Below, piece after piece: positions 1 through 15,558 of a stretch of DNA of 64,000 nucleotides. Each line of letters begins with the position of its first letter. Within the stretch, counting starts at the first letter, position 1. The position numbers and the translations under genes were made by a program. The notes below the pieces were generated by a model. It had not been told where the DNA came from. It saw nothing but the letters and a program-made list of their open reading frames with translations, and searched no databases. The stretch comes from Gluconacetobacter diazotrophicus PA1 5 (GTDB taxonomy: Bacteria > Pseudomonadota > Alphaproteobacteria > Acetobacterales > Acetobacteraceae): NCBI RefSeq assembly GCF_000021325.1, contig NC_011365.1, positions 744,001-808,000 of the forward strand, in the 5' to 3' direction.

Positions 1-1777
1 GGGTGCCCCCCGAGGTCACATACATCTTGACCGCCAGCGCACCGGTCTTGGTCGGCGCCGGATAGGTCCCGTTGGGGTCCGACACGTCGCTCATCCCCGC
101 TGCCGGCATCTGCTGGAAGTTGAGCAAGTGCAGGATGTCGAAGCCGGCGCGATGCAGCGGCAGCAGATAGACCGCCCCGGCCGTCGCCGTCGCATTCCCT
201 GTCGCGCCGGAGATGATGGAGGGGTAGGCATTGCCGGTGACCGCGACGTTGTTCCGCAGCAGCTTTTCATAGGCCACGCCGAAATTCTGGTAGTCGTATT
301 CCGCCTGCGCCATCCCGGCCGGCAGCGACAGCATGTTGCCAATTGGGAAGTCATCGTTGGAAATGAAGCGCGCGCCGTCGCCGGCATTTTGCTGACCGCC
401 CACGATCCAGGCGTGATGCGCGCCAGTCGCCAGGATCGTCGCCTCCTGGTAGAGGATTCCGGGCAGGCTGAAGCTACAGGCCGTCGAGCCGCCGTTGGTG
501 GAGCATGACGACGACGCAGCCACGGTCTTGTCCAGCCCCATGTCCCAGTCGAGCCCGATATTGATCGGCGTCCGGTTCGCCCACCCCCAGACCTGCGCGG
601 ATTTGTTCCAGAACGCGCCATAGCCGCTGATATCGTCGCCATGGTCCCACCGCTCCACGAAGTGGTAGAGTTCCTGACCCGACTGCACCAGATCCTGCTC
701 GTTATAGGAACTGGCTGGGTTCAGCGTCATCGGAGCGCCCACCAGGCCCGTCACCGTCTTGAGGAACGAGGAATAGGCCGTGTCCAGAGTGATCCGGTTG
801 CCGGACCAGTCCCAAAGCGGTGTGCTGATCGTGCCGTAGGTGTCGACGAAGATGCCGTCGAACCCGAAATGCTGGATGACCTGCCGGGCCTGCTGCGCCC
901 AGTAATACTGCCAGTTCACATTGTTCGGGTTCATGTAGCCGACGTTGGCATCGAAATGCCAGACATCGCTCAGCTTGCAGGACGAGGTCGCGCCACAGTT
1001 ATCGCTGAACATCGCCCACTGCAGGCTCGCGCCGGAGCCGTCCTGGGTGAAATCTGGCGAGATCCCGACATTCGCACCGTAAAGCGGGAAGTAGGACAGC
1101 GTTCCCATCCGGTATCGCCTGGCCGTGGCGATGCCGCGCCGGATCAGCTGCGCGGACTGGGTCAGGTTGTCCCCGTTCACCCAGTTTTCCGCGTCCGTCC
1201 AGGGCTTATGCCAGCGATACAGCTGGTTGTAGAACTGGAGATTGTTGCAGTGATAGGCATTGAGTCCGGCGATGTCGGCCTCGGGCGTCCCGTAGATCCC
1301 GGCAGGGTTCCAGCCGCCCCCGGCCGTGAAGGTGCCGGTGAACCAGCACTGGCGCGGATAGACCCACCAGTCAGGCGAGTAATCGATCGCGGCGGCCTGG
1401 GTATCGACGGCGGTGCCGGCCGCGTTGGCCGCGACGATCTGGACGTAATAGCCCTGATGATCGGCCATGCCCACGGTCGGGATATCGATCTCCACCGTGG
1501 CGGACGCGGATGCCGCGAGGCTGCTCACGGCCGCCACCACCGGCTGGCCCACCGGCACGCCGCGACCGCTCACGGTCGCGGTCAGGGTGCCGCTGAACGC
1601 GCCGCCGGTGCCGTTAGCGAGCCCAACGAACAACCGTGCCACGTCCCCGCTCGTATAGGTCGCACGGTCGCTGTCGACCGTCTGGATCAGCGATCCCGTC
1701 AGGGTCGGCGCCCCCGCGTGAGCCGCCCCAGCCAGGACGAACGCGCAGAGCGCCAGCAGCTTACCAAGCCGGAACAT
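1..1777 (-). CDS. Secreted GH66 dextranase-like glycoside hydrolase (3' end off window)
   Basis: The frame is open from an ATG at 1777 to the left edge, giving about 592 residues without a stop. A hydrophobic signal peptide (MFRLGKLLALCAFVLAGAAH) indicates export. A beta-rich N-terminal region is followed by a barrel with family GH66 hallmarks: LNAYHCNNLQFYNQL, then GFDGIFVDTYGT with the probable nucleophile Asp312, then ELYHFVERWD with probable acid/base Glu375, and a later HLLNF motif. GH66 enzymes cleave alpha-1,6-glucan (dextran) or form cyclic isomaltooligosaccharides; which applies here cannot be decided. The catalytic assignments are by motif and spacing, not alignment. The start overlaps the end of a truncated upstream frame, suggesting a former operon. 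The neighbouring polysaccharide cluster makes a glucan-processing role plausible. Confidence 0.8.
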   Translation of the reverse strand, partial: MFRLGKLLALCAFVLAGAAHAGAPTLTGSLIQTVDSDRATYTSGDVARLFVGLANGTGGAFSGTLTATVSGRGVPVGQPVVAAVSSLAASASATVEIDIPTVGMADHQGYYVQIVAANAAGTAVDTQAAAIDYSPDWWVYPRQCWFTGTFTAGGGWNPAGIYGTPEADIAGLNAYHCNNLQFYNQLYRWHKPWTDAENWVNGDNLTQSAQLIRRGIATARRYRMGTLSYFPLYGANVGISPDFTQDGSGASLQWAMFSDNCGATSSCKLSDVWHFDANVGYMNPNNVNWQYYWAQQARQVIQHFGFDGIFVDTYGTISTPLWDWSGNRITLDTAYSSFLKTVTGLVGAPMTLNPASSYNEQDLVQSGQELYHFVERWDHGDDISGYGAFWNKSAQVWGWANRTPINIGLDWDMGLDKTVAASSSCSTNGGSTACSFSLPGILYQEATILATGAHHAWIVGGQQNAGDGARFISNDDFPIGNMLSLPAGMAQAEYDYQNFGVAYEKLLRNNVAVTGNAYPSIISGATGNATATAGAVYLLPLHRAGFDILHLLNFQQMPAAGMSDVSDPNGTYPAPTKTGALAVKMYVTSGGT

Positions 1778-1991
1778 AATGCGTGCTCCCGTTTTGATCC
1801 TTGAACGTGAAGCAGCCGGTCGATCCCGCCAGCGAGCCGCAACTGGCGGGCGTCGCGACATAGCCCGAAAACGCGATGTTGCCGTAAAGTCCGATCGCGC
1901 CGGTGCCCTTGGCGTAGAAACTGATGGATGCATTCGCGGCATTCGGCGACAGATACCCGTTGCCAGAGGTGTCCTGCCACACGGTAATGAT
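1761..1991 (-). pseudogene. C-terminal remnant of an unrecognised gene cut by the IS5-family element
   Basis: About 76 codons are open from the left inverted repeat of the IS5-family element down to a stop at 1761, overlapping the dextranase start by 17 bases. The translation is rich in Gly, Ser, Ala and aromatic residues (ISFYAKGTGAIGLYGNIAFSGY) with two cysteines and ends in HYVPAW, which reads like an exported beta-rich protein tail. A GTG at 1982 could act as a start, but the frame continues upstream into the insertion sequence, so truncation is the simpler reading. I do not recognise the family. Confidence 0.5.
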
Positions 1992-3137
1992 GAGACCTGT
2001 GCGCGAATGGTGGTTATTACTGGGGCCACCTGTATTTAAGACAGAAGACGCTGCACTGGCCTGCGTCTTTATTGTTTAAAATGCTTCACGACGCGTTTCA
2101 GAACTGATGTGGTCGCCAACCCGTTATGCGACTAATGCGAGGATCGTGAGGGTCCGTCTGAGATTGTAGGCAATGGCTGTAACGTGGATCTGGATGGCGG
2201 CCTTGGCGAGACCCCGCCATCGCATGCGGCGCAGGCCGTAACTTCGTTTCCATGTGCCGAAGATCTTTTCGATCCGGCCCCGGGTCCGGTGGACGGCGTC
2301 GTTCCAGGCCTTCAACCTGGCAAGCGTTTCCTGTTCGTCGTGTCCCCACATCGACGTTGCGGCAACGCGGAGCGTGCCACCTTTCGACCGGACGGCATCG
2401 CGGAAATGATTGCCACGATAGGCACCGTCTGCAAAAACCTCGCCAGGATCGTCGGGCACGGCGTCCGGACCGGCGCGTCCATCATTGATATTGGCCGGGG
2501 TAATTGCGATCTGCTCGACCAAAGCCGTCGTCGCGTCCGCGCCAACATGGGCGTTGTAGCCATGCACGGCCTTGCGGCCCTTGTGCTTGACCCAGCGGGC
2601 CTCGCCATCATGTTCCGTTTGCGACGTAATGATCGTCGCATCGACGATCGTGCCGGTCTTGATCCGGATCGCCTGCGTTTTCAACTGACCCGTCACCGCT
2701 TCGAACAAGGCCCTGTCGAGCGAGCGGGCGGCCAGTTCGCGTCGGAACCGTACAAACGCTGTGCGCTCGGGTGTCGGTTCCTGTGCAGAAAATCCGCAGA
2801 ACCGGCGAAAGGATGCCCGGTCGTCCAGCGCCTCTGCCAACCTGACGTCCGAGAGGTCATGCCAGACCGCAAGCAGCATCGCCCGGAACATCGTAAGCGG
2901 CGGCCATGCTGCTTCGCCTTTCGGCGCGGGATAAACCTGCACCAGCAGGGCCGCCACCGGTCGCCAGTCGATCAGCTTCACGATCTCATCCAATGACGAG
3001 GGCTTTCGATCGGGCCGTGAAAACACAAGACAGTCCTGACCAATCAATCGGTGCGCCATCGCCATGCTCCACGCTCAATACCAGCGACAACAGAATCACT
3101 GTTCAGGCACAACGTCCACCACCCGCGCACAGGTCTC
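1992..3137 (-). mobile_element. IS5-family insertion sequence, about 1146 bp
   Basis: The ends are imperfect inverted repeats: both begin GAGACCTGTGCGCG followed two bases later by TGGTGG, at 1992 reading in and at 3137 on the complementary strand. The element holds one minus-strand DDE transposase gene. No matching target duplication flanks it: the left flank is a truncated gene and the right flank is an IS256-family transposase fragment. The element therefore probably inserted into IS256 and a later deletion removed the other half. Confidence 0.8.
2124..3065 (-). CDS. IS5-family DDE transposase
   Basis: 313 residues. The N-terminal region contains LIDWRPVAALL and WPPLTMFRAMLL, typical of the IS5-family helical domain. 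The DDE catalytic core follows: TGTIVDATII (first Asp), VFADGAYRG (second Asp) and RGRIEKIFGTWKR (Glu). The frame is uninterrupted and nearly fills the element, so it may be active. The start at 3065 leaves about 70 bases to the right inverted repeat, which fits the promoter-proximal end of such elements. Confidence 0.88.
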   Translation of the reverse strand: MAMAHRLIGQDCLVFSRPDRKPSSLDEIVKLIDWRPVAALLVQVYPAPKGEAAWPPLTMFRAMLLAVWHDLSDVRLAEALDDRASFRRFCGFSAQEPTPERTAFVRFRRELAARSLDRALFEAVTGQLKTQAIRIKTGTIVDATIITSQTEHDGEARWVKHKGRKAVHGYNAHVGADATTALVEQIAITPANINDGRAGPDAVPDDPGEVFADGAYRGNHFRDAVRSKGGTLRVAATSMWGHDEQETLARLKAWNDAVHRTRGRIEKIFGTWKRSYGLRRMRWRGLAKAAIQIHVTAIAYNLRRTLTILALVA

Positions 3138-3433
3138 ATTACCCGGCCCCCATCCGTCAGCACGGTCTTCTGCCCGTAGCCATTGCGGCAGTTCGGGCGG
3201 CCGGCCACAGCCTCGCCGTCCAGATGGTGGTCCAGTTCGGCGTTGAGCAACCGCTCCGCCAGCGCCTTCTTCATATCCCCCAGAAGGGCGTCCGCGTCCG
3301 ACATCGTGCGGACCACGCGACCAGCCAGAACCTGGTCCAGAACATCGTCAGGGATCACGGGCTTCTTGCGTCGGGCCATGATGCGTCTCCTTCCTCAGCA
3401 TCACACCAAACACACGAAATTCAGGATAGGCCC
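3138..3433 (-). pseudogene. N-terminal fragment of an IS256-family transposase with one IS end
   Basis: The reading frame starting at ATG 3379 begins MARRKKPVIPDDVLDQVLAG and continues through AELDHHLDGEAVAGR and NGYGQKTVLT, the conserved start of IS256/mutator-type transposases. After about 78 residues it is cut by the IS5-family element, and the remaining codons belong to that element. Upstream of the ATG, the complement of 3405-3433 carries a GAATTTCGTGTG end motif matching the IS256 terminus seen again at 7238-7260. The catalytic domain is lost, so the fragment is inactive. Confidence 0.8.
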
Positions 3434-3523
3434 GCCCCCGTTGCACGCCCCACGCCCTCGGCGTATAATCTCCAGCGGGACTCTATCTGGGCCGGATAAA
3501 AATACAGAGTAAGTCAACAGGGC
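3434..3523. other. Short intergenic between IS256 remnant and glycosyltransferase
   Basis: No gene is seen. This is where composition changes abruptly from GC-rich IS sequence to the AT-rich glycosyltransferase pair, so it marks the left boundary of the atypical DNA. Confidence 0.4.
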
Positions 3524-5131
3524 CTATGTAACCGCGTGCCTTAAACCAAACAGCTTCCGGAGAATCCCGGGCACCTCATTTTCCTTATCGCTTATATTAT
3601 ATGTGTTCAATTCTACATTATTATCATGTTTATACAACACAAATTTATGAAAAATTCCATTAAACATCGGACCAACTGACACTCTAAACTCAATGTCTAA
3701 ATATGAGCACGCCAACTCAAAATTAAACTCAATATAATTTTTTATATTTTTTTTCACGATTTTTGAAATGACGTTATTCCCCCCTCCCGCACAAATTTCT
3801 ATTTCTATATAGTCGGCGAATAAGTCTGAATCAAAATAAGCTTCAAGTTTATAGTATCCAGCCTCTAGCCCAATATAGGGGCCATACATAATTCGCCCTT
3901 CACTCCCTACAGGGATAACAATCCCATGTTTTTCGCGTTTCACATTGATAGTTTGTATATTCGGGTCAGAAAAATCAAAAACTCTGTCTGTCCTGTCGAG
4001 AGAAATATGATGCAACTCTCCCGAAAAATCCCCGAATACACTCATCCTAAATTCGACGTATTGATGAGGAGAACTAATATCAAATGAGAATTTTACACTA
4101 TTTTTATTTATAATATCATCATGTCGTTCGTCATATTCCTTAATAATTTTAGAGCCATAATTAGCTGACACATCAAGAAATACACGAGAGAATTTTGTAT
4201 CGTCACTGAATTTAAACATAACTTCATAGCTACCAGCTTCTAGATCAGCAAAAGGCCCATACATAAATCTACCATGAGCACCTTTCTTCGCAGTCAACCC
4301 GGTGGAAGTTAAAATAGCACAATCTTCAGCATGAATCTTAATCTCGCCTGGATACCACTTCCAATGATCAGTCTCCCCATAAACGCATTTGCTAGCCCAC
4401 AATCTGACATAGCTATTAACACCAGAAAGACCAAGTTCCGAAATATCTCCAGCAACGGCTTTATTACGAATACACACCAGATTTCTATCCGGCGTAATGA
4501 AGGTTACGTTTTGAGGCTGACGCTCAGGGGTAACATATCGTACTTCGCCCATAAACTGGTCATCAGCTTCAAACCGTTGTCCCTTGTCAGCCATAGCGGC
4601 AGCAAATGAACGACCCAGCAAGGCACCTGCCGTTGGATAATGATCATGGATTCCATAGAAACGTTCTTTACAATTTCGGACAATTCCATTGATGGCACGT
4701 TCCCATTCTGGACGGCCCGGCAAAGACCACAAAAGATTCGTCTGGACACAAGTCCAACTTTCCATCCCAGGGTACATTTCCGTAAACGCCGCAACACCAA
4801 AATGCTTTGGAATCTTCCAATAATTTAATAGTTTGTTCGATAAGTCAAAATATATTCCCCCATATATATACATTAAGCAAAAACGTGCCAAGTCACATTT
4901 ATAAGCGTAGGGCACCAACAGATCAAAAGCGGCCAGAACCTCTCCATCAAAATTGGAGCGTATAAAGTCACGTAATGATTCACCACTCCACAAAATATAT
5001 TCCGCCTCTGGGTAAATTTTTCTGGCAGCATCTATATTTTTTTGTACAGCGAGAGGAATTTTTTCGGGAAGACCAAGCCCATCTACAATCAAAACCTGAT
5101 GCAGATATGAAATGGAATGAAATTCAGACAT
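3524..5131 (-). CDS. GT32/DXD-type glycosyltransferase with tandem C-terminal modules (copy A)
   Basis: 535 residues with no signal peptide. Residues 1-260 look like a sugar-transferase fold of the GT32/capsule-synthesis type: LHQVLIVDG near the start, YILWSGE (45-51), YAYKCDLARFCLMY (75-88), GGIYFDLS (91-98) and EADDQFMG (188-195). The usual metal-binding DXD of this family reads DLS here. Residues 265-385 and 390-500 are two related modules sharing GR.MYGPF/Y..LEAG.Y, a D-I/V-S/C-A-G..-like segment and VEFR/IEFR..V, probably beta-sandwiches and possibly carbohydrate-binding. The gene is far more AT-rich than its surroundings. It lies 36 bases downstream of a paralogue in the same orientation. 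A role in surface polysaccharide or glycan decoration is inferred from the adjacent export operon; donor and acceptor are unknown. Confidence 0.7.
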   Translation of the reverse strand: MSEFHSISYLHQVLIVDGLGLPEKIPLAVQKNIDAARKIYPEAEYILWSGESLRDFIRSNFDGEVLAAFDLLVPYAYKCDLARFCLMYIYGGIYFDLSNKLLNYWKIPKHFGVAAFTEMYPGMESWTCVQTNLLWSLPGRPEWERAINGIVRNCKERFYGIHDHYPTAGALLGRSFAAAMADKGQRFEADDQFMGEVRYVTPERQPQNVTFITPDRNLVCIRNKAVAGDISELGLSGVNSYVRLWASKCVYGETDHWKWYPGEIKIHAEDCAILTSTGLTAKKGAHGRFMYGPFADLEAGSYEVMFKFSDDTKFSRVFLDVSANYGSKIIKEYDERHDDIINKNSVKFSFDISSPHQYVEFRMSVFGDFSGELHHISLDRTDRVFDFSDPNIQTINVKREKHGIVIPVGSEGRIMYGPYIGLEAGYYKLEAYFDSDLFADYIEIEICAGGGNNVISKIVKKNIKNYIEFNFELACSYLDIEFRVSVGPMFNGIFHKFVLYKHDNNVELNTYNISDKENEVPGILRKLFGLRHAVT

Positions 5132-5167
5132 AGCCTATCTCTACCTTTTATATAGTAAGCCAACGAC

Positions 5168-6727
5168 TTATTTTGAAATAAGATCGTATTTCACGAATTC
5201 TCCGGAAAAATCCCTATCCACGTGAAGTCTAAATTCAACACCTGTTTGGTCATAGGCCAAAGAGAATGGGAATTCTATTTCAGAATGATAAGAAGGAAAC
5301 AATTTTTTATAATTGAACTTATAAACACTCTCATGAGTGTTCCCACCTGATATATCAATCATAATTTTTGAAAACCTAGTCTTGTCTCCAAAAAATATTT
5401 TTAATGTGTATTCCCCAGATTTTAAATCACAATAAGGACCGAACATGACTCGACCTTTCGTACCTTTGGGAATAAGAATTCCAGTAGATGTGCGAGAAAC
5501 GCCAATCAACTGAATCTGCTTTGAGCGAAAATCCCAGATTTGTCGATAATTGTCGATTTCTTTTCTATCTCCAATCTCCTTTCGATCACTTTTGGTCACC
5601 GTTAAACGACGGATTTCCCCAGAAAACTCTCCAAATACGGAGGCTCTGAACTCAACATTCTCGCTAAATTCAGAAAGAACAAAATCAAGATCTATCGAAT
5701 CATGATTTTTAATTGATTTATCTTGAAAATTAAAACAATTAATTACATTATTTCCATTGCCAGCGCATATATCTACAAAAAACCTTGAAAATTTTGTTTC
5801 AGGACTGAATTCTATTTTTAGACGATAGGACCCACCTTCTAACGTTGCGAAAGGACCATAGAATACGCGCCCTTCTGCACCCGAAGCAACAGCTATACCT
5901 GTTTTAGTTCGAGTTGCTCGTCCCTCGACAATTACATTCAGATCATCAAAATCCCAAACATGATTTTCCTCAGAATACATCTGCCGCGCACGCCAGATGT
6001 CGTTGTAATTATTGGAGCCGGATATCCCAATATCTCTTAAATCGCCCCCTGTTTTTTTTGCCCGGAGAGCGACAACAACACCTTCTTTAGAAACATAAGC
6101 CACATTCAGCATTTTTGCGTCTGGTGTGATACAACGACAATTCCCAACATGCTGATCATCTGCCGATTTATTCTGGCCCCTCTCAACCATTGTTGCTACG
6201 CAGGCCCGTCCAAACAAAACTGGACCAGTAGGATAAAGAGGCTGGCTGCCATAGTAGCGTGTACGACAATTTTCAACAATCCAGTCTATAGCTTTCTTTA
6301 ATTCCGGGCGACCGGGCAGTGACCAGATCAGGCCATTCTGAAGGGCAGTCCAACTGGGAGTAATAAATGGAACATCCCGAAATGCTGCGAGGCCCTTTGC
6401 GGATGGTATATCCCATTTGTTCATTAATCTTACACCAAGGTCAATATACATTCCTCCATGTATGTATAGAACGCACAATCTGGCCAAATCGCACTTATAG
6501 GCATATGGTTTTATTTTATCATAAGCCCACAAGACTTCTTCTGAGAAGTTTTTCAATAAAAATTGACGAATATCTTCTCCGCTCCACATTTTATATTCCG
6601 AGTCTGGATAAAATTCTTTTATGCAACTAATATTATTTTCAATAATTTTTGGAAGATTGTCTGGCAGCTTTCCGTTTCCCAAAATTGTTATTTGATGTAC
6701 TTTATTTATATCGTGATACTTTTTCAT
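5168..6727 (-). CDS. GT32/DXD-type glycosyltransferase with tandem C-terminal modules (copy B)
   Basis: 519 residues and clearly paralogous to the downstream gene along its full length. The catalytic-type region shows VHQITILGNG, YKMWSGED (45-52), PYAYKCDLARLCVLY (74-88), GGMYIDLG (91-98, where DXD would be expected), WSLPGRPEL (135-143) and SADDQHVG (188-195). Modules at about 266-378 and 403-519 repeat the TGI.I..G..GR.(Y/F)GP(F/Y)..L..G.Y pattern, then (D)I..GN, then VEFR.....FSGE. A short linker repeat, DRKEI twice (381-390), separates them. DNA is AT-rich. A promoter-like sequence lies upstream, so this is probably the first gene of a two-gene unit. Function beyond glycosyl transfer cannot be read from sequence. 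Confidence 0.7.
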   Translation of the reverse strand: MKKYHDINKVHQITILGNGKLPDNLPKIIENNISCIKEFYPDSEYKMWSGEDIRQFLLKNFSEEVLWAYDKIKPYAYKCDLARLCVLYIHGGMYIDLGVRLMNKWDIPSAKGLAAFRDVPFITPSWTALQNGLIWSLPGRPELKKAIDWIVENCRTRYYGSQPLYPTGPVLFGRACVATMVERGQNKSADDQHVGNCRCITPDAKMLNVAYVSKEGVVVALRAKKTGGDLRDIGISGSNNYNDIWRARQMYSEENHVWDFDDLNVIVEGRATRTKTGIAVASGAEGRVFYGPFATLEGGSYRLKIEFSPETKFSRFFVDICAGNGNNVINCFNFQDKSIKNHDSIDLDFVLSEFSENVEFRASVFGEFSGEIRRLTVTKSDRKEIGDRKEIDNYRQIWDFRSKQIQLIGVSRTSTGILIPKGTKGRVMFGPYCDLKSGEYTLKIFFGDKTRFSKIMIDISGGNTHESVYKFNYKKLFPSYHSEIEFPFSLAYDQTGVEFRLHVDRDFSGEFVKYDLISK

Positions 6728-6768
6728 TATATCTCTATCGTTGATGAATTTGTGTGGATTGATTTTTT

Positions 6769-6797
6769 ATCTTATAAAAACCTGGCTAGTTCGTCAA
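6769..6797 (-). promoter_or_regulatory. Possible sigma70-type promoter for the glycosyltransferase pair
   Basis: Reading the minus strand, TTGACG (6797-6792) and TAAGAT (6774-6769) are separated by 17 bases, about 40 bases before the ATG at 6727. The match to consensus is moderate and the DNA is AT-rich, so chance similarity is possible. Confidence 0.35.
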
Positions 6798-7083
6798 TTG
6801 GACAACTCCCCAAACCATGTTGATAGTTCTCTGGTGTTCAACTTGAAGTAGTATGAATTACGACCTCGAATCGTTCGATTAATCAAGATTGCACTGAGTT
6901 TCACCTTGTGGAACAGGTTTCGTCATTGCTGAACGAGATCACAACCTTGATCAAATGGGAACCGATCGACACGATACTCTCGTCGATGCGGCTTATGAGG
7001 AGAGGACGTGCCTCCCGATATTCAGACCACTTTGAGCAGGAATTTTCCACTTATGATCCTGGCGACGGGAGAAGGAGAGTTCC
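6798..7083 (+). other. Non-coding stretch with a possible IS5-type transposase remnant
   Basis: No intact gene is seen. A short plus-strand frame around 6898-7000 translates to segments such as LLNEITTLIKWEPIDTIL, which resembles the N-terminal region of IS5-family transposases (E-I-..-L-I-.-W). It then degrades. Together with the IS3 and IS256 fragments that follow, this looks like an IS graveyard. The last 25 bases carry a good ribosome binding site (GGAGAAGGAGAG) for the IS3 OrfA fragment. Confidence 0.35.
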
Positions 7084-7237
7084 ATGAAGAAGTCGAAGTT
7101 TTCTGAGGCGCAGATCGCATTCATCTGGCGCCAGGCAGATGAAGGAACCCCGGTTGCGGAGGTGTGCCGCAAGGCCGGTATCAGCGACGCGACCTTTTAC
7201 AACTGGCGCAAGCGCTATGGCGGTATGACGCCAGGGC
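7084..7237 (+). pseudogene. Truncated IS3-family OrfA (helix-turn-helix half)
   Basis: The frame starts MKKSKFSEAQIAFIWRQADE and includes VCRKAGISDATFYNWRKRYGGM, the helix-turn-helix of IS3/IS407-type OrfA proteins. At GGMTP it runs straight into the terminal sequence of an IS256-family element (7238), and a chance stop follows at 7261-7263. The leucine zipper and the rest of OrfA and OrfB are absent. This is the left part of an IS3 element interrupted by IS256. Confidence 0.75.
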
Positions 7238-7428
7238 GGGACTGTCAGGAATTTCGTGTGTGAGGTGTTGTTCACGTTGTTGATCAGACGGTGGCCCGCG
7301 CGAAGCGGTCACCGAAGAGAATGGCGAACTGGGCCTTTGCCATGGACCATTCCCTTGGGGGCATGATCCCATTCTTTCTCGGCCCGGTTCAAGGCCAGGA
7401 AGAGGAGCTTGAGGGGCGTCCGCACTCG
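7238..7428 (-). pseudogene. IS256-family transposase C-terminal remnant with IS end, frameshifted
   Basis: From about 7428 downwards, the complement encodes LKLLFLALNRAEKEWDHAP and then, after a shift of one base in a C run, REWSMAKAQFAILFGDRFARA, the conserved C-terminus of IS256-family transposases. The stop is near 7289. The outer end at 7238-7260 reads GGGACTGTCAGGAATTTCGT and corresponds to the IS256 end near 3433. The rest of the element, which would lie beyond 7428, is missing. Orientation shows it is not simply the other half of the 3.1-3.4 kb fragment. Confidence 0.7.
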
Positions 7429-7519: not shown

Positions 7520-8167
7520 TTATAACTTATCGTAACTTTCGATCGCATCATGGACACTACCATAAGGTACAAATTTACCCCCATGGATGATAGCCGCCTG
7601 ATCACAATGTTCACGGATAAAACCCATGTCGTGAGAAACGATAATGAGCGCCCTGTCCTGACGTTTCCCAAACAATTCGTCTTGGCATCGCGCCAAAAAA
7701 CGTGCATCTCCGACCATGATAACTTCGTCGATAAGATAGCATTCAAATTCGATGATAATCGATAGCGCAAATGCAAGGCGCGCACGCATTCCTGATGAGT
7801 AGGTCTTGACAGGTTCCCCCAATTGCCGCCCGAGTTCGGCAAAATCATCCACGAATGCTCGGGTAGACGGGTAATCGAGATTATAGATCCTGCAAATAAA
7901 GCGAAGGTTGTCTAGACCACTTAGACTTCCCTGAAACGCACCACCAAATGCCAGGGGCCAGGACACAGACATTGTGCGCTCAATACGTCCAGATGTCGCA
8001 AATTCCACTCCCCCGATGATACGGATAAGCGTCGATTTCCCAGCACCATTTCGGCCTAGAACACCAAGCCGCCGCCCGCGATCAAGCTGAAAATTTACAT
8101 GGTCCAGTACACGCCGGCGTCCACCGGGTACGTGATACTCTTTCACAAGGTCGATACAACGAATCAT
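7520..8167 (-). CDS. kpsT: Polysaccharide export ABC transporter ATP-binding protein (KpsT-like)
   Basis: 215 residues, the normal length for KpsT-type ATPases. Walker A is GRNGAGKST (38-46), the ABC signature is YSSGM (123-127), Walker B is CYLIDEVI (143-150), and SHD follows. The QGSLSGLDNLRF segment and the short C-terminus are typical of the capsule (ABC-2) subfamily. The chosen ATG at 8167 overlaps the permease stop as ATGA; a 24-residue in-frame extension to 8239 lies inside the permease gene and is unlikely. The product should power export of a completed polysaccharide across the inner membrane together with the upstream permease. Confidence 0.88.
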   Translation of the reverse strand: MIRCIDLVKEYHVPGGRRRVLDHVNFQLDRGRRLGVLGRNGAGKSTLIRIIGGVEFATSGRIERTMSVSWPLAFGGAFQGSLSGLDNLRFICRIYNLDYPSTRAFVDDFAELGRQLGEPVKTYSSGMRARLAFALSIIIEFECYLIDEVIMVGDARFLARCQDELFGKRQDRALIIVSHDMGFIREHCDQAAIIHGGKFVPYGSVHDAIESYDKL

Positions 8168-8964
8168 TGAACTAATATATGACGACGAACCCGAAGTGTC
8201 AGCGACAAGCCCAAAAGAATCATAGTAACCGTAGCCCAACTATCATAGACCAAGTCATAATGCGCATGCGCGGAGTAACCAAACTGCCCACCACGTACCA
8301 TTTCGATACTGTTCACGCTAGGCGAAAGCAGAAGAATCCAGCGGTAATGTTGCGGTATCCAATCAACCATCATAAACGCGCCGGATACCGGCAACGACAG
8401 ATAGGATATGACTGAAATCGTTTTTTCTAAAAGTTCTGACATCTCCGACAGCGGTGCAACCACAAGTGCCGTCCCGAGGCAAAATAAAACGTGATAAAAA
8501 ATTCCCAGATAAAGCAGTCCATAATCTGCTGGAGGCTTCATGAACCCCAGTATAATTGCCCCGACAGTGACGATCAGACCGGCGATTAAGGCACCCATAA
8601 CTTCAAGGATAACCCGCGTAAGAATTAAATCCAGGGGCGTCACCTGCCGGTGGAATAGAAGACTGCCGTTCGCGTTGAAGGCGTGGACGGATTGAGCAAG
8701 GCAATGACGCCACATTGTCAGGGGGACATAGCCCGTTATGACAATAGCAGTCGTCTGCAGACCATGTTCATGCGCGGGCCGTATGGCCGTCCAGGCGATA
8801 GCAACACCCGCGCAGAATAAGATCGGCTCTCCCACTATCCAGAGATAACCAAGATTCTCGCGCCCGAACCGCGTATGCAATTCGCGTATTAGAAGCGCGC
8901 CGATCACCCGCATCTGCACCCGGAACAGCGTAAGAAGCGATGGTGTGTTCATCGTGTCACTCAC
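8164..8964 (-). CDS. kpsM: Polysaccharide export ABC-2 permease (KpsM-like)
   Basis: 266 residues with about six hydrophobic segments (for example LGYLWIVGEPILFCAGVAIAW, VILEVMGALIAGLIVTVGAI and LLYLGIFYHVLFCLG). The N-terminal RELHTRFGRENLGYLW and LFHRQVTPLD motifs are characteristic of ABC-2 capsule and O-antigen exporters. The start is either GTG 8964, which overlaps the KpsE-like stop as GTGA, or ATG 8952. It overlaps the ATPase gene by ATGA, so the two are translationally coupled and form one transporter. Confidence 0.87.
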   Translation of the reverse strand: MSDTMNTPSLLTLFRVQMRVIGALLIRELHTRFGRENLGYLWIVGEPILFCAGVAIAWTAIRPAHEHGLQTTAIVITGYVPLTMWRHCLAQSVHAFNANGSLLFHRQVTPLDLILTRVILEVMGALIAGLIVTVGAIILGFMKPPADYGLLYLGIFYHVLFCLGTALVVAPLSEMSELLEKTISVISYLSLPVSGAFMMVDWIPQHYRWILLLSPSVNSIEMVRGGQFGYSAHAHYDLVYDSWATVTMILLGLSLTLRVRRHILVQ

Positions 8965-10256
8965 ACGATCTGGTGTTCACGCGCGCCATTAATGATCAGC
9001 TTACCCATCAGGTAGACCATCAAGAACGTCGCAAAGACAATCAGCACGTCGGCAATCCGCTGCGGATATGTGGCATAATCCGCCAAATCCGGCTGCGAAA
9101 TCTCCTCCAGATAGACCTGCTGCCGATCCGCCTGCCCTTTGGCGCTGATCAAGGCGGACGCCGCCGCAGCCAACCCTTTCTCGACAATTTCCTGTTTAAT
9201 CACCAAGGCGTCGTAATCCGTGATCTTGGGGACCAGCGAGGTCTTCGACCCCGTAACCTCCTTGTTCGACCTGGCAATCTGATCTTCCAGCACCGCGATC
9301 CGATGCTGATACACCGGAATCGAAGGACTATTCGGCGATTCTGTCTGAACCTGGGCAAGCTGTATCCGCGTCGACGTCAGCGCCACCTGCAGTTCATTGA
9401 TATTCGACAACATCGGGGCCGCTTGCTTGAGTGGGTCCAAGAGTGCCTCCCGATTGCGATAGGCGGCCATCTGCTCCTCTACGTCCCGCAGTTGATCCTG
9501 CGCTTCCGCAAGTTCCTTCGCCGCGCTGCCGATCATGTTGGCCCGCTTCCGCGCATTCATCTGATTGACGAGTTGTTCCGCCGCGACAAGAAGAGCCTGT
9601 GCAACGGCTTGGGAATCCTGCGCGCGGAAGGTACGGACCTGAAGGGTCGTTATGGACGTCGATGTATCGAGATCAACGGTGATATGCCGCTTATAATAGC
9701 GATAAAAATGCTCGAAGGTCGCGCCCGTAAAGATATTGGGGAACCGGGCAGGCCAATCGCCTTCGGGGCGATTGAACATCGCCGCGCCCCCTTGCGTGCG
9801 AAGCATCGTTCTGGCCGCATCCCGCGACGTCAGGTAGTCCTGCACGACGTAGGCATCTTCGTCGGCCGACGATCCGCCCTCCCCCGTCAGCAGGCTGCTC
9901 AGCATTCCCATGGGCTGGGATGAAGCCCCCCGCACGACGAATTCGGCCTGCGAGACATATTGCGGCGCGGCGATCAAAAAATAGTAAATTGCCGCGATGA
10001 AGGTCGGCAGCATCACCACCAGCAGAAATGGCCAAGCCTTTCGGACCCCACGTCCGCGGTGAAAGCCCCGCGGAATCGCGAGAAGCGCCGAACCAGCCGA
10101 GGCGATTGTCCCGCTCGGAATTTCAAACCCGTCCATGGCAAACAGGTGCATCATCGGGAGCCGGAAATCAACTGCGGAATACCGACCGGCCAGAAGCGAG
10201 AGATGATACATCACTTTTCCGTCAACAAGCTCACCCCTTGCGCGAGCGGATGGCAC
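8961..10256 (-). CDS. kpsE: Capsule export inner-membrane/periplasmic protein (KpsE-like)
   Basis: Up to 431 residues. A transmembrane segment at about 74-95 (WPFLLVVMLPTFIAAIYYFL) and another near the C-terminus (VLIVFATFLMVYLMGKLII) flank a long periplasmic coiled coil (about 240-390), the architecture of KpsE/BexC/CtrB proteins that bridge the ABC exporter to the outer-membrane channel. The longest frame begins at GTG 10256; ATG starts at 10211 or about 10150 also fit, and the sequence before the first TM is poorly conserved-looking, so the true start is uncertain. It lies 58 bases after the GT4 gene and overlaps the permease gene. Confidence 0.82.
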   Translation of the reverse strand: MPSARARGELVDGKVMYHLSLLAGRYSAVDFRLPMMHLFAMDGFEIPSGTIASAGSALLAIPRGFHRGRGVRKAWPFLLVVMLPTFIAAIYYFLIAAPQYVSQAEFVVRGASSQPMGMLSSLLTGEGGSSADEDAYVVQDYLTSRDAARTMLRTQGGAAMFNRPEGDWPARFPNIFTGATFEHFYRYYKRHITVDLDTSTSITTLQVRTFRAQDSQAVAQALLVAAEQLVNQMNARKRANMIGSAAKELAEAQDQLRDVEEQMAAYRNREALLDPLKQAAPMLSNINELQVALTSTRIQLAQVQTESPNSPSIPVYQHRIAVLEDQIARSNKEVTGSKTSLVPKITDYDALVIKQEIVEKGLAAAASALISAKGQADRQQVYLEEISQPDLADYATYPQRIADVLIVFATFLMVYLMGKLIINGAREHQIV

Positions 10257-10314: not shown

Positions 10315-11640
10315 CTACAGAACGGCTTCGTACATTTCCCGCACTCGATCTTCATATTTTTTCATGTTGAAGCACGCGGCTTGATGAGGTCCCCGATCTC
10401 GCAGTTTGGCGCGCAACGCGTCGTCCCTGTCGAGTTCTTCGATCCGGGCCGTGATGGAAGAGGTATCGTACGCATCCACGAATAGCGCCGCCTCTCCCGC
10501 GACCTCCGGCAGGGCTCCTTCCCTTGAGGTCAGTACCGGCGTGCCGAACGACAACGCCTCCAGCACCGGCAAGCCAAAGCCCTCGGACAGCGACGGGAAG
10601 AGGACCGCACGGGCGCCCCGAATCAACGCCATCAGCAACGGTGTCGGCAGATATTCCAACTGCCGGATTCGTCCAGTCGAAACACCCCGTGCCAGAAAGC
10701 GCAATTCGGCTTCCGATTTCCAAGCCATCGCCCCCACGATGACGAGCGGGCGGTCCGTCTGCGCCATGAGAAACGATTCAATAAGGCGACCGAGGTTTTT
10801 TTTGGGCTCCAGCGATCCGAAAAACAGGAAAAATTCCCCAGGCCGCAGATCGAATAGCCCTTCGCTTTTCTGGGTGAAATCGTCCTTCTGAGACTTCTCC
10901 ATCGACATACTCGGCTGGAACGACTGGTAAGTGTTATACAATCGCTCCTTCACCTCTGGAAAAAACGATAGAATTTCGGCCCGCGACGCCTCTGATACAG
11001 TGCAGATGGCGTCCGCCTGCAGCGCCAACTTACGAATCAAGCTGAAATAATATTTTTTATCATCAAGCGTCGTTTGTGGCAACCTTAACGGAACCAAGTC
11101 GTGAATGGTATAAATATTCCGCGCATCCTTCAACCGAATAGGTAACGGATAGGTCCAGTGCATGATTGCTGGCGGATCGGGGATAGTGACTGTCAGGAAG
11201 CGGCCAGTATACTGAAAATGCCGCGCAGCCACGCGATAAAGATGCTGTACATTCAAAATCCGATCGAACGCCGGCATGCGATGCGCAAATCCACGCACCT
11301 CGACCCGGCCGCTGATTGGTATATCGACCGCCGTGTGACCGATCATGTCGACCCCACAATCCCGCCACCAGCGCATTGTCCAGGCCTTTGCCAACTTGCC
11401 GGTCGATTCCTGGTCCAGACTGTCAAAAAACATGACTTCCCGAAGCGCCGTCGGTGTTTGCCGGGGAATGTTCATGCCGTAGAGGACATCCACGGCGCAC
11501 CCCATTGCCTTGAGACAATGAGTCAGCGTGCGCGCATAGGTGGCAACGCCCGTTCCGCGCGGAAGCGCGAGATTGAAACCATCGACGCCAATACGGGGGG
11601 GAGAATCACGAAGCAACGGCACCTCACAAAAAGAAGACAT
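10315..11640 (-). CDS. GT4-family glycosyltransferase
   Basis: 441 residues. The N-terminal Rossmann domain carries IGVDGFNLALPRGTGVATYARTL, and the C-terminal half has FFLFFGSLEPKKNLGRLIESF and FPSLSEGFGLPVLEALSFGTPVLTS, the nucleotide-sugar-binding E-x7-E signature of GT-B retaining GT4 enzymes. It probably adds a hexose during assembly of the exported polysaccharide; the sugar is not predictable. It heads the minus-strand export operon (GT4, KpsE, KpsM, KpsT) and is divergent from the outer-membrane lipoprotein gene. Confidence 0.85.
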   Translation of the reverse strand: MSSFCEVPLLRDSPPRIGVDGFNLALPRGTGVATYARTLTHCLKAMGCAVDVLYGMNIPRQTPTALREVMFFDSLDQESTGKLAKAWTMRWWRDCGVDMIGHTAVDIPISGRVEVRGFAHRMPAFDRILNVQHLYRVAARHFQYTGRFLTVTIPDPPAIMHWTYPLPIRLKDARNIYTIHDLVPLRLPQTTLDDKKYYFSLIRKLALQADAICTVSEASRAEILSFFPEVKERLYNTYQSFQPSMSMEKSQKDDFTQKSEGLFDLRPGEFFLFFGSLEPKKNLGRLIESFLMAQTDRPLVIVGAMAWKSEAELRFLARGVSTGRIRQLEYLPTPLLMALIRGARAVLFPSLSEGFGLPVLEALSFGTPVLTSREGALPEVAGEAALFVDAYDTSSITARIEELDRDDALRAKLRDRGPHQAACFNMKKYEDRVREMYEAVL

Positions 11641-11824
11641 AATTTATTAAACCGAACAATTGACAATAATAGTATTTTATATTTTTATTTGTCCATCCAA
11701 TTTGAAATTTAATACTTTATCCCTGGTCGCGCAGAACGACAAGCTACAAGGCTCCTGCGTTCTTGCATAACATTTTCTGACGTTGCATAAGAGCCTCCAT
11801 ATCGCATTAGCCCGTACGGATTAC
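11641..11824. promoter_or_regulatory. Divergent AT-rich promoter region, GT4 operon / KpsD
   Basis: This 184-base gap serves both the minus-strand export operon and the plus-strand lipoprotein gene. It is AT-rich in a GC-rich setting. A TTGACA box occurs at 11660-11665 on the plus strand with AT-rich sequence downstream. TTGCATAA occurs twice (about 11763 and 11784), a possible regulator site. A TTG at 11783 gives a longer lipoprotein frame, but ATG 11825 suits the lipoprotein signal better. Confidence 0.4.
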
Positions 11825-12985
11825 ATGATCGATCGCTACGCATCAGTTGCTCGTGTCCTGGCCATCTCCGCCTTGCTGGCCGGATGCAGTACGTTGCCTA
11901 GCAGCGGGCCGGTCAGTTCACAGATCCTGCAAGCCGCAAAAGACCCGAAACTGAACCCGATCGGTTTCAGCATAGTCCCGTTCACGCCGAAGACACTCGA
12001 CGTGCTTCAAAACGAAACGCCTCCGCTTCTTTCCACCCTGGAGAAAGAAGGGCCGGGTCAGGGCGAACACGGGGCCATCGGCCCCGGCGACGTTCTTGCA
12101 ATCTCCGTCTTCGAGATTGGCAGCAGCCTGTTTTCGGGCGGCGGCCTGACAGGAGGAAGGGCGGCGGCATCAGGGGCAGCCAGTATTGAAGCCCTCCCCC
12201 CCGTCGAGGTCGATGATCAGGGCTATATTCCCTTTCCCTATATCGGCCGCGTTTTCGTCGCGGGAGAAACGCCGACCCAGCTTGCCAAGACGATCGAGGA
12301 CCAACTGGCCGCGAAGTCGCAGAATCCCCAGGTCATTGTGCGGATCATGACCGACCTGCATAACTCCATCATCGTATCGGGCGACATTCTTCACCCTGGA
12401 CGTCAGATGCTCACCCTCGCCCATGAGGGGCTTCTGGACATCATCGCCATGGGAGGTGGCCCGAGCCACTCGTCCGAGGACAGCGTGGTACTCCTGACCC
12501 GCCATGGGGTGACGGGGAGCATTCCCCTGCGTACGCTCGAAACCCATCCGGAGCAGAACATCCCGCTTATGCCGGGCGACCGGGTCCAGGTTATCTACCT
12601 GCCCCGGACCTATACGGTTTTCGGCGCAACACGCGTAATGCAAACGCCGTTCAATACACCGGTACTCACACTTGACCAGGCCATCGCGCGCATTGGCGGA
12701 CCGGCTGACGATCGTGCCGACGCCAACGCAATCTACCTGTTCCGCTATGAAAGCGACGAGGTGGCACAGAAGCTCGGGCTGACCCCGAAACCCGGTGGCA
12801 CGCCAATTATCTACAATATCGATTTGATGAACCCGACGAACTACTTTCTTTCCCAGAAATTCGTCATGAAAGACAAGGATCTGATCTTTGTCTCGAATGC
12901 GAAGGTCAACAAGCTGTACAAGTTCCTGACCTTGATTGGCGCCGTGACCAGCCCGGCTATTACCGCTGCCTACGTGGCGAGGTAG
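11825..12985 (+). CDS. kpsD: Outer-membrane polysaccharide export lipoprotein (KpsD/Wza family)
   Basis: 386 residues from ATG 11825. A lipoprotein signal peptide with lipobox LLAGC lies near residues 18-22. The poly-export domain begins at GAIGPGDVLAISVFEIG and is followed by VDDQGYIPFPYIGRVFVAGETPTQLAKTI, then SLBB-type repeats (NSIIVSGDILHPGRQ; RTYTVFGATRVMQTP). The C-terminus is hydrophobic (LTLIGAVTSPAITAAYVAR). Proteins of this type form the outer-membrane exit channel for capsule or exopolysaccharide. It is divergently placed from the ABC export operon with which it should work. Confidence 0.88.
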   Translation: MIDRYASVARVLAISALLAGCSTLPSSGPVSSQILQAAKDPKLNPIGFSIVPFTPKTLDVLQNETPPLLSTLEKEGPGQGEHGAIGPGDVLAISVFEIGSSLFSGGGLTGGRAAASGAASIEALPPVEVDDQGYIPFPYIGRVFVAGETPTQLAKTIEDQLAAKSQNPQVIVRIMTDLHNSIIVSGDILHPGRQMLTLAHEGLLDIIAMGGGPSHSSEDSVVLLTRHGVTGSIPLRTLETHPEQNIPLMPGDRVQVIYLPRTYTVFGATRVMQTPFNTPVLTLDQAIARIGGPADDRADANAIYLFRYESDEVAQKLGLTPKPGGTPIIYNIDLMNPTNYFLSQKFVMKDKDLIFVSNAKVNKLYKFLTLIGAVTSPAITAAYVAR

Positions 12986-12996
12986 GCGACTTTCAC

Positions 12997-13018
12997 CCTG
13001 CCGCCGTTCCGCGGCAGG
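12997..13018 (+). terminator. Hairpin after the KpsD/Wza gene
   Basis: Perfect 8-bp stem CCTGCCGC/GCGGCAGG with a 6-base loop, 12 bases after the stop. There is no clear T run, so it is a weak or Rho-assisted terminator. Confidence 0.55.
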
Positions 13019-13061
13019 TCCGGTCCGTATGGAGCATCTCCAGGATCAGCAAATACGGACC

Positions 13062-14015
13062 TCAATGCCCTTCCGTCGCATGGAAGCGGGTGTAATCGAC
13101 CGTAATGCGCCCGTCGGGGCCAGAATCGATGATGTCGACGAAGCGGTGGTTGTAGAGCACCCGATCGAATCCGTAGGCGTTGCGGGCGAAGACGCTTTGT
13201 CCAGATACCTCGTCGGTGCCGGTCATGGTCACGACGATTTCTGCCTCCTCCAGACGCAGTTCATCGACTGTCAGGCCGTTCAGGGGGCTGTGCTCGTCGA
13301 TGACGTGCATCAGTGGGAACGCGAAGCGCAGGACGGGAATGTGGGACTGGACCAGCGGTAGCGGGTCGAACTGGCGGGCCAGGCGTCCGTTTGGCTGGAC
13401 GATCAGGCGGGCCAGGAACATTTCCACGCCGACCGACAGAATCGGGCTGAGGCGCCGGTTCGCGATTCGCACGCTAAGGTGAGAGATTCCGTTTTCAACC
13501 CGAATCAGGGCGCGGTCGCTGAACATGATCCGCGCCTTGGGGCGTGCGAAGCGGGCGAAGACCAGGCCGGTGGCGACCGCGTTCAAGATCATGCCGGCCA
13601 GCAATTCGAATGACGAAATGACATGCGCCACCGGCCCGACGGGGGCCATCACGCCGTAGCCGACCGTCGACAGGGTCTGGATGCTGAAGAAGAAGTAATC
13701 CCAGAACGCCCCTGGATGCGTCCCCGTCACCTGCCCCGGCGCCATCATATATAGCAAGGCAAACCCGACATTGATCAGGACGTAGAACGCCAGCGAAGAC
13801 CAGAAAAAAGTGCGCCAGCGCACCGTGAGGGCATGATGATAGAGGTCGGACCACGCCCGATCGGCATCGCCGATGCGGACGATGTTGTCATGGCCCCGAT
13901 CTTCAAGCGCATGGTGATTGAGCAGACGCGAAAGGGCCTGGGGCACCTGTGCCGCAAAAGGCGTACGTCTCGCATGTCCTCCGGCTGATTTGGACGATCC
14001 CGACTCCCGTTTCAT
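13062..14015 (-). CDS. Inward-rectifier potassium channel (KirBac type)
   Basis: 317 residues from ATG 14015. Two transmembrane helices (about 71-91 and 128-150) flank a pore helix and the K+ selectivity filter TVGYG (117-121). The C-terminal immunoglobulin-like cytoplasmic domain is recognisable by FSDRALIRVENGISHLSVRIANRR and by VDELRLEEAEIVVTMTGTDEVSGQSVFAR. The protein should form a tetrameric K+ channel in the inner membrane. The 29-residue in-frame extension to 14102 is basic and unlike the family, so the internal start is preferred. No operon partner is evident. Confidence 0.9.
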   Translation of the reverse strand: MKRESGSSKSAGGHARRTPFAAQVPQALSRLLNHHALEDRGHDNIVRIGDADRAWSDLYHHALTVRWRTFFWSSLAFYVLINVGFALLYMMAPGQVTGTHPGAFWDYFFFSIQTLSTVGYGVMAPVGPVAHVISSFELLAGMILNAVATGLVFARFARPKARIMFSDRALIRVENGISHLSVRIANRRLSPILSVGVEMFLARLIVQPNGRLARQFDPLPLVQSHIPVLRFAFPLMHVIDEHSPLNGLTVDELRLEEAEIVVTMTGTDEVSGQSVFARNAYGFDRVLYNHRFVDIIDSGPDGRITVDYTRFHATEGH

Positions 14016-14166
14016 TCCCCCGCACCTTTTCGCGACGCCTATTCGACGCAGGATGGCGCGAAACGGTACGTTTGCGTATGGGGGTAACCGCGCGGGTCTC
14101 ATGCAGTGGACGAGGCGGCAACGGGATCACGAATGCAGGAGATCCGGCCGGAAGGACGGTCCCCGC

Positions 14167-14361
14167 CTATCGGGACAGATCGATTTCCATCGATTCCTGG
14201 CCGGCATGCAGGCGCCTGATTTCCTCGCATGACGCGATCCAGTAGCGTGCCTTTTCAGCGTCGCCGTCGAGGCGGGCCTCGTCCAGATGGGTCTGGGCAA
14301 TGGCCAAGGCTTCGGCACCGTGGCGCGCAAAGAGGTCGATCGCGGTGGCTTCGGGTGTCAT
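14167..14361 (-). CDS. Small conserved-looking hypothetical protein
   Basis: 64 residues, MTPEATAIDLFARHGAEALA at the start, strongly helical and rich in Ala, Glu and Arg, with no signal or membrane segment. The start at 14361 is supported by an excellent ribosome binding site (GGGAGGAG) 9 bases upstream. A longer frame extends to 14730 but overlaps the divergent VOC gene. Function unknown; it resembles small helical proteins common in Rhodospirillales. Confidence 0.6.
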   Translation of the reverse strand: MTPEATAIDLFARHGAEALAIAQTHLDEARLDGDAEKARYWIASCEEIRRLHAGQESMEIDLSR

Positions 14362-14463
14362 AGTCGTCTGCTCCTCCCGCTTGTTCATCCGGGACAAATC
14401 CCGTGTTCGGGCGTTTCGTCCTCTGCCCTGGTGCCTCAACACGCTTGCCGGAAGGACAGTTCC

Positions 14464-14880
14464 TTGATCGACGCCCTTCATCACGTGGCTATTATCTGTG
14501 CGGATTACGACCGGTCGAAGGATTTTTATACGCGCATCCTCGGCCTGCCGATCATTCGCGAGACCTATCGGGCCGAACGCCGATCCTGGAAATGCGACCT
14601 GGCCGTCGGCCATGCGCAGATCGAACTGTTTTCCTTCCCGGACCCGCCGCCACGTCCCTCGCGTCCCGAGGCGCGCGGCCTGCGGCATCTGGCCTTCGCC
14701 GTGCGGGACCTGCACGCGGCGGTCGAACACCTGCAGCAGGCCGGAATCGTGGTCGAGCCGATTCGCACCGACGCCCTGACCGGGCGCGATTTCACCTTCT
14801 TCGCCGACCCCGACGACCTGCCGCTGGAATTGTATGAAGTAGATCCCGCTGGTCCGCCGCCCGGCACCATGGCAACGTAG
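14464..14880 (+). CDS. VOC-family (glyoxalase-like) protein, YaeR type
   Basis: 138 residues starting at TTG 14464, with GGAAGGAC just upstream. One vicinal-oxygen-chelate domain is seen: DALHHVAIICADYDRSKDFYTRILGLPII at the start with a metal-ligand His, ELFSFPDPPPRPS in the middle, GLRHLAFAVRDLHAAVEHL, and a terminal PLELYE with the metal-ligand Glu. This pattern matches the uncharacterised YaeR/glyoxalase I-like group; the substrate is unknown. A longer frame to 14287 reads through the region of the divergent small gene and is less likely. Confidence 0.8.
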   Translation: MIDALHHVAIICADYDRSKDFYTRILGLPIIRETYRAERRSWKCDLAVGHAQIELFSFPDPPPRPSRPEARGLRHLAFAVRDLHAAVEHLQQAGIVVEPIRTDALTGRDFTFFADPDDLPLELYEVDPAGPPPGTMAT

Positions 14881-14903
14881 CTGCCCCTGAAGGAGTAGAG
14901 GCC

Positions 14904-15191: not shown

Positions 15192-15203
15192 TCGGCCGCC
15201 CCT
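15181..15203. terminator. Hairpin terminator between convergent genes
   Basis: AGGGGCGG (15181-15188) pairs perfectly with CCGCCCCT (15196-15203) around the DUF1330 stop codon. It lies between convergent genes and could serve both directions; no T run follows. Confidence 0.5.
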
Positions 15204-15213
15204 AGCCGGACCG

Positions 15214-15423: not shown

Positions 15424-15558
15424 GACATGATCTCCTTCGCTTGAAGCGACGGGACGGCTGAGAACAGCCGTGCAAGAGCATGCAGTCCGTCCTGTGACAA
15501 CGACGAATGCGTGAAGTCCTGATGACAGTTCGATGACGGTGGCGGATTGGGTTCGCGG

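Follow-up and report, generated by a model that had tools for sequence, protein, structure and literature searches.

Paired GT32-type transferases with repeated, predicted jelly-roll modules at the C-terminus beside a capsule-type export locus in Gluconacetobacter diazotrophicus

Introduction

In the 64,000-nucleotide stretch of the Gluconacetobacter diazotrophicus PA1 5 genome that we have analysed (contig NC_011365.1, positions 744,001 to 808,000 of the forward strand; hereafter, "the window"), two adjacent genes on the reverse strand encode the transferase-like proteins P0001 (3524-5131, 535 residues) and P0002 (5168-6727, 519 residues), both of which carry, after an N-terminal half of the GT32 type, two copies of a C-terminal module. 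An earlier description of the locus, based on the letters alone (hereafter, "the sequence-only reading"), did not recognise this module and offered three roles for it: the binding of the glycan product, a fibre-like tether, or the positioning of the acceptor on the neighbouring export machinery. The question that the locus raises is what such a repeated module contributes to a pair of transferases that are encoded next to genes for polysaccharide export.

The answer that we propose, with a probability of about 0.5, is that the two proteins are transferases with accessory glycan-binding modules that serve the assembly of a capsule chain. The pair would be cytoplasmic GT-A transferases of a GT32 subfamily, which help to build a polysaccharide for the adjacent KpsMTE/Wza-type export system; their C-terminal jelly rolls would bind the lipid-linked glycan while it grows, or else some shared portion, and hold the chain near the active site before its export by KpsMT; and the module itself would be an accessory part with which the Acetobacteraceae have equipped many kinds of surface-glycan enzyme. 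What computation brings to this proposal is the repetition of the module, the fold predicted for it, the variety of enzymes that carry it, and a conserved gene pair that comes after kpsT.

Results

The transferase pair and its repeated module

The N-terminal halves of both proteins match PF04488 (Gly_transf_sug) with 37.2 and 37.5 bits, above the Pfam cut-off of 23, and the GT32 assignment of the sequence-only reading is upheld. The catalytic domain of P0002, the type 1 paralogue, spans residues 1-254 (5966..6727, reverse strand, as are all features of the pair; PF04488 at 4e-9), and that of P0001, the type 2 paralogue, spans residues 1-253 (4373..5131; PF04488 at 4.8e-9); the two are identical at 110 of 253 positions. 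In the full model of P0002 (pLDDT 90.3, pTM 0.70), the N-terminal half adopts a GT-A fold, which is aligned with YeGT (8ovt) over 200 residues (Z 18.3, root-mean-square deviation (rmsd) 3.8) and with Och1 (9n3s) over 206 residues (Z 17.2, rmsd 3.3). Several toxin and effector glycosyltransferase domains are also found among the fold matches of this model, a likeness that we take to be one of the common GT-A fold only.

The repeats follow directly: module A (residues 255-384, 5576..5965; a predicted carbohydrate-binding-module-like jelly roll, from the model and its fold matches) and module B (residues 393-519, 5171..5551; from its alignment with module A, and a high-confidence beta domain in the full model) in P0002, and module A (residues 254-385, 3977..4372) and module B (residues 386-505, 3617..3976) in P0001, both delimited by repeat alignment and profile. 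All six pairs of copies share 32-51 identities over 98-125 positions, with z scores of 20-41 (300 shuffles each), which confirms that the pair consists of adjacent paralogues with two C-terminal repeats each. The shared motif of the four copies also stands, but its details need correction: the repeat is nearer to 120-130 residues than to about 115, the motif is better written GR..[YF]GP[YF], since one copy reads GRVMFGP, and in the segment given as "D-I/V" the aspartate is replaced by glutamate in one of the four copies.

After its second module, P0001 ends with a possible amphipathic stretch (residues 506-535, 3527..3616), assigned by helical moment; its top value of 0.54 lies in the top 4% of the protein's own windows, and those of the other five type 2 proteins measured lie in the top 0.3-10%. 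The moment is high in most of these tails, though not in all, and it is suggestive only of membrane-binding amphipathic helices. Short tails after the last module are seen in type 2 homologues, and are rich in lysine and phenylalanine in two of them (L117, L118).

Searches of Pfam and NCBIfam at E values up to 1 have placed the C-terminal halves of the two proteins in no family, a negative that is limited by the HMMER filters, which discard most matches above E about 0.1; the module thus remains as unrecognised as it was in the sequence-only reading. Among PDB sequences, the module profile finds its best match in a short segment of an arabinogalactan galactanase (E 2.3e-4, domain 0.0039). Antibody-like PDB sequence matches of the C-terminal half of P0002 (E 0.06-0.12) are weak and have been taken as chance. 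In the open-access literature on carbohydrate-binding modules (CBMs), glycosyltransferases, capsules and Acetobacteraceae, from which subscription papers mostly fall outside, no description of the module was found by title or abstract opening. We rate the module as new at the level of the sequence family, with a fold that is known and a setting that is unusual and little described.

A defence or phage origin of the pair has been considered and rejected: PADLOC gave no match, and the only PHROG match was a single uncharacterised family over the transferase half. A tblastn search with P0002 gave no match to phage records and none that was confirmed in viral contigs; its matches in plasmid records were to three Sphingobium plasmids, at 37% identity and over the transferase half only.

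The active-site motif

The description of the active site as DXD-like holds for the first aspartate of the motif; the second is replaced in both proteins of the window, which read D-L-G and D-L-S. The pattern D-[LI]-[GSA] occupies this position in all 31 close homologues, the window included, whereas 13 of 15 more distant homologue open reading frames (ORFs) in the same scan retain D-x-D. Among 23 loci of the family with distant matches, 17 have D-x-D, two have D-x-K and four have no motif by pattern, while four module-free relatives within the family have D-x-S. Judged from these alignments, the lost second aspartate is a feature of this GT32 subfamily, its module-free members included, and such a subfamily poses a clean biochemical question.

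The replacement might be read as the mark of inactive transferases or of regulatory glycan sensors, in which the modules do the main work, and the sharp division between the close and the distant homologues lends itself to this reading. The rest of the domain, on the other hand, is strongly conserved, with 14 invariant positions among 27 proteins, D96 included, which is not what would be expected of a dead enzyme, and the change of motif is common to relatives without any module; we regard this explanation as very improbable. The transferases would more probably be active despite their incomplete DXD motif.

The predicted fold of the module

The model of the module, predicted from an alignment of 32 sequences, is all beta and forms a jelly-roll beta-sandwich (mean pLDDT 95.9, pTM 0.88), in agreement with the beta-type module of the sequence-only reading. 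In a Foldseek search of the PDB, the best match is a hyaluronan-binding module (E 5.7e-4), followed by CBM35 entries, with only three matches reaching E 0.001; further matches include CBM16, CBM6, CBM61 and CBM4, mostly with TM scores of 0.4-0.6. About half of the best 50 solved-structure matches are carbohydrate-binding modules by title. With VIA-align, the CBM35-titled entries among the best 50 of 989 chains reach Z 10.2-11.3 (rmsd 2.5-2.8, 110-116 residues); the CBM35 structure 4qb1 is superposed over 112 residues with Z 11.3 and rmsd 2.5 at 10% identity, and residues 403-534 of the modular xylanase Xyn30D over 116 residues with Z 11.5 and rmsd 2.5.

Because of this predicted fold and of the enzymes to which the module is joined, glycan binding, one of the roles offered by the sequence-only reading, has become the leading reading; the modules would bind sugar, and their ligand would probably be the capsule or exopolysaccharide chain.

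Distribution and partner enzymes

The four-copy profile of the window matches 39 of 249 genomes of the Acetobacteraceae, its own genome included, and, in a draw of 385 genomes from the whole class, two that also belong to this family. A broader profile of 62 rows matches five of 289 class genomes, two of them of the family, and nine of 398 phylum genomes, namely two of the family, three other members of the class and four from a single additional genus, in which the matches are weak and partial. By these counts, the module is common in the Acetobacteraceae and rare, though present, outside them.

An iterated profile has identified 60 copies in 47 ORFs of 39 fetched loci, of which nine ORFs are of the GT32 type and 38 are not. 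These loci are a selection of profile matches: they include two with module-free GT32 genes (L081, L101), and they leave out the module stretches of G015, G161, G204 (contig 17) and G238, all of the same genus as the fetched G106, as well as the second stretches of G226 and G134. When the profile is built from the GT32-carried copies alone, it recovers the same 38 ORFs without GT32 at E<1e-3 and matches no reversed decoy; the loci having been chosen because the window repeats matched them, the result speaks for consistency and does not amount to an independent test.

Thirty-five of the 38 non-GT32 ORFs have been scanned with Pfam, and 18 of them match a family above its gathering score: seven SAM-methyltransferase, seven GT4, two WavE, one GT9 and one Glyco_trans_1_2 (which also has a sub-threshold GT2 match). 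Of the others, one has a methyltransferase match below the gathering score, and 16 have nothing above it. The module is thus found on other glycan-active proteins, as had been envisaged for the survey, and its motif offers a handle for surface-glycan enzymes with unrecognised catalytic halves, given that 17 of the 35 scanned ORFs are without a Pfam family above cut-off.

In 43 of 47 ORFs, no more than 60 residues lie between the last module and the end of the ORF; the exceptions include L098, where the module precedes a GT9 match, and L088, where it is followed by TPR repeats. Outside the family, a WcbI protein has two modules on its N-terminal side, and a single chain from Candidatus Nitrotoga (L122:7206-9089) combines a PIG-L deacetylase with a single module and a transferase domain of the same GT32 subfamily. 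A scan of full-length relatives (36 loci) shows the same catalytic domain with zero, one, two or three modules, the module-free versions occurring, for example, in Bradyrhizobium, Methylorubrum and Mesorhizobium. This variable copy number and the C-terminal placement are as expected of an accessory part. Accordingly, there is no support for taking the fusion, which the sequence-only reading did not recognise, as the novelty in itself, the module being carried by many other enzymes; nor is there support for a fibre-like tether, as there are one to three separate jelly rolls, on proteins with catalytic partners that are usually cytoplasmic. A positioning role at the exporter is a possibility. 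We infer that the two proteins of the window remain in the cytoplasm as well.

The same variation in copy number would suit a folding or oligomerisation appendage that has no ligand of its own, whose conserved residues could be those of a core or of turns. The module tree, too, tracks the partner enzyme, with 18 changes of partner label, where none of 300 shuffles gave fewer than 32; the tree, which was made from 62 rows by a quick method and in which five of the 59 inner branches are starred and several branches are long, has been used for this count only, many of the labels are singletons, and the unassigned partner groups U1, U2 and U6 were set by eye and later confirmed by BLAST. Fusion to many unrelated enzymes of one type of pathway, though, is hard to explain without a role related to that pathway, and we consider the appendage explanation improbable. 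The accessory glycan-binding reading agrees with the predicted fold, with the partner enzymes and with a copy number that varies.

Two groups of module proteins are recorded here in their own right. The proteins of L087, L089:5402-7918, L090, L092, L093 and L099 form a related group, with N-terminal halves that are 31-86% identical in pairs (over the parts available); most have two modules, the five that were scanned have no Pfam match, and the intact N-termini begin like ILYGRNDSYGYNLHKRAALSLNC. By their sequences, they are perhaps an undescribed glycosyltransferase-like family. The proteins of L107, L112, L128:2310-3347, L125:3693-4901, L078:8332-9363 and L080:8687-9616 have about 310-400 residues and a degenerate C-terminal module; three of these six adjoin kpsT or kpsE homologues, and the two scanned with Pfam (L107, L128) gave no match.

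Descent of the paired paralogues

Pairs from other genera, those of Asaia lannensis, Gluconobacter vitians, Saccharibacter, Bombella pluederhausensis and B. apis, are split in the tree of the transferases, their second genes grouping with P0001 and their first genes with P0002; the type 2 clade has a support of 100/100, and the type 1 clade, which is not starred, of 89/90. A further genome (G070) holds the same two transferase types, as assigned by motif. The pair occurs in the same order in seven genomes, the window included (G085, G101 and G243 being taken as the records of Asaia, Saccharibacter and B. pluederhausensis, and counted once). The order kpsE-kpsM-kpsT-type 1-type 2 is found in five of the seven: the window, Asaia, G070 and both Bombella. 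In Saccharibacter, kpsM lies upstream of the pair, kpsT was not found in the locus by BLAST, and there is a further transferase tandem, one member of which has one module and the other none; the Gluconobacter contig is too short to show the genes upstream of the pair. Because both types recur as ordered pairs in the same clades of the tree, the duplication is older than these genera, with its copies kept adjacent.

A glycan or a common docking partner

Several results weigh against the reading of the modules as glycan binders in capsule assembly. The most conserved module positions (62 rows) are G37 and G45 (62/62 each), E105 (61/62), P38 (59/62), Y47 (58/62) and R107 (50/62); these may be structural, and their constancy across enzymes whose glycans probably differ speaks for one common partner and not for varied sugars. 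In the VIA-align comparison, a MAM-containing astacin zymogen, meprins and the C-terminal domains of insecticidal proteins also reach Z 10-11.4, and an Eph ligand-binding domain scores as high as the CBMs, or nearly so; since these domains match comparably, the predicted fold class is clear but does not settle the function, and a shared jelly roll is no sign of one. With respect to gene neighbourhood, 10 of the 38 module-bearing genomes other than that of the window lack a KpsE match, and in 18 of the 28 that hold both, the 20 kb on either side of KpsE show no module gene; a tally of 113 genes that neighbour the non-GT32 module genes has no Pfam family with more than six members, although many of these ORFs are possibly wrong-frame picks. 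In favour of the reading, the other 10 of the 28 genomes (G009, G061, G070, G085, G089, G101, G150, G174, G226 and G243) do have a module gene within 20 kb of KpsE on the same contig, a count that is a lower bound, owing to draft contigs, and is given without a chance level; four of the ten are GT32 loci, and the rest have other partners, such as methyltransferases (L078, L080) or two unassigned proteins (L071).

These observations bring forward a different role for the module, that of a protein-protein docking domain which gathers unrelated glycan enzymes at the inner membrane or at the exporter. The near-invariant E105 and the conserved R107, Y47 and GP, which persist across partners of differing chemistry, would suit such a role, as would the clustering of module proteins, three of which share the locus L074, and the occurrence of modules adjoining kps genes in several genomes; jelly rolls, moreover, also act in protein interaction, as do MAM domains and as the Eph match illustrates. 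About half of the close fold matches, however, are sugar-binding by title, many module genes are far from kps genes, and the same catalytic domain does without the module in other bacteria. We consider a docking domain unlikely, but keep a shared docking partner as the main rival, because a few residues, E105 foremost, are constant across enzymes that presumably meet different sugars. In its boldest form, which we put forward as a tentative possibility, the module, typical of the lineage and cytoplasmic, would be a common docking tag for surface-polysaccharide assembly in acetic acid bacteria and their relatives: by recognising one shared component, either the stem of the lipid-linked glycan or the exporter, it would bring chemically unrelated transferases, methyltransferases and other enzymes to one nascent chain, with E105/R107 and the GP..L..G.Y core as the recognition face.

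If glycan-binding accessory modules are what the locus encodes, the polysaccharide enzymes of this family would be recruited by a shared module. Module-based recruitment is known chiefly for enzymes that are secreted to degrade sugars, and for the ATPase that drives export in some O-antigen systems.

The export locus and its surroundings

The export machinery that had been noted next door is indeed adjacent to the pair. On the reverse strand are encoded a KpsT-like ABC ATPase (7520..8239; a 239-residue ORF from TTG, with only ABC_tran PF00005 above cut-off), a KpsM-like ABC-2 permease (8164..8964; PF01061, with the KpsM model at 3.2e-27, below its cut-off), a KpsE/BexC/CtrB-like polysaccharide export protein (8961..10256; TIGR01010 at 3.7e-79, below its cut-off) and a GT4 glycosyltransferase (10315..11640; PF00534) with homologues in several related loci; a Wza/KpsD-like polysaccharide export protein (11783..12985; PF02563 at 3.4e-17) is encoded on the forward strand. 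A KpsE homologue is also found in 28 of the 38 other module-bearing genomes.

About 790 bases separate kpsT from the pair and contain insertion-sequence remnants (7005..7420, no strand assigned), identified by sequence comparison; insertion-sequence genes and remnants also lie on the other side of the pair (2124..3433, reverse strand; PF01609, PF00872). The segments 3141-3433 and 7237-7420 correspond to opposite ends of a single Mutator-type insertion sequence from G174 (L180, 415-residue ORF); in the window they lie in direct orientation and with the tail before the head, and the transferase pair is placed between the truncated copies, like the cargo of a composite element. The guanine-plus-cytosine content is 35-46% over 3501-7000, 59-67% in 1-3500 and 47-59% over the exporter genes.

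Another genome of the same species (G215), which appears to be deposited under the same strain name, has the exporter operon and no match to the transferase pair; in place of the pair, its locus (L176) has, after kpsT, a 975-residue TPR ORF and a pectate-lyase-like ORF. Its identity to the window is 88% over 10316-16000 and 76% over 7530-10180, and its KpsE match contains one TAA. According to a passage of PMC3035290, two published PAl 5 sequences disagree, and the disagreement seems to include the locus of the transferase pair.

Comparison with known systems

The catalytic halves resemble GT32 enzymes (PF04488; Och1, YeGT) in their profile match above cut-off and their GT-A fold (Z 17-18), but differ from them in the second aspartate of the DXD motif, which is replaced by G, S or A, in their C-terminal modules and in their capsule-export locus. 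The modules are like CBM35, CBM6, CBM4, CBM16 and CBM61 in their predicted jelly roll, which is aligned over most of the module length, and unlike them in sequence, with an identity of about 10-15% and C-terminal halves that have no Pfam match at E up to 1; CBMs, furthermore, typically sit on secreted hydrolases, whereas the module rides on biosynthetic enzymes.

With Wzt_C (PF14524) of the O-antigen ABC exporters, the likeness is one of proposed role only, the recognition of a nascent polysaccharide beside an ABC exporter, as portrayed in part of PMC11231755. Wzt_C sits on the ATPase, whereas the modules sit on transferases and the KpsT of the window has only ABC_tran above cut-off. A relationship between the two has been rejected at the level of sequence, with hhalign probabilities of 2.2% and 1.0% (against a five-sequence Wzt_C alignment), while a positive control between module subgroups gave 99.1%. 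Among the best 50 of the 989 chains aligned with the module model, Wzt_C was not recognised by title. Wzt_C is present in four of 100 genomes of the family and has no match in the genome of the window. With the glycan-binding domain of Wzt, the closest parallel by description is the Klebsiella O7 terminator ORF6, for which PMC11231755, in the part that concerns it, reports a predicted CBM inside a cytoplasmic O-polysaccharide enzyme; that CBM is described as having an immunoglobulin-like fold and is a single case, the authors stating there that CBMs were not identified in other terminator enzymes.

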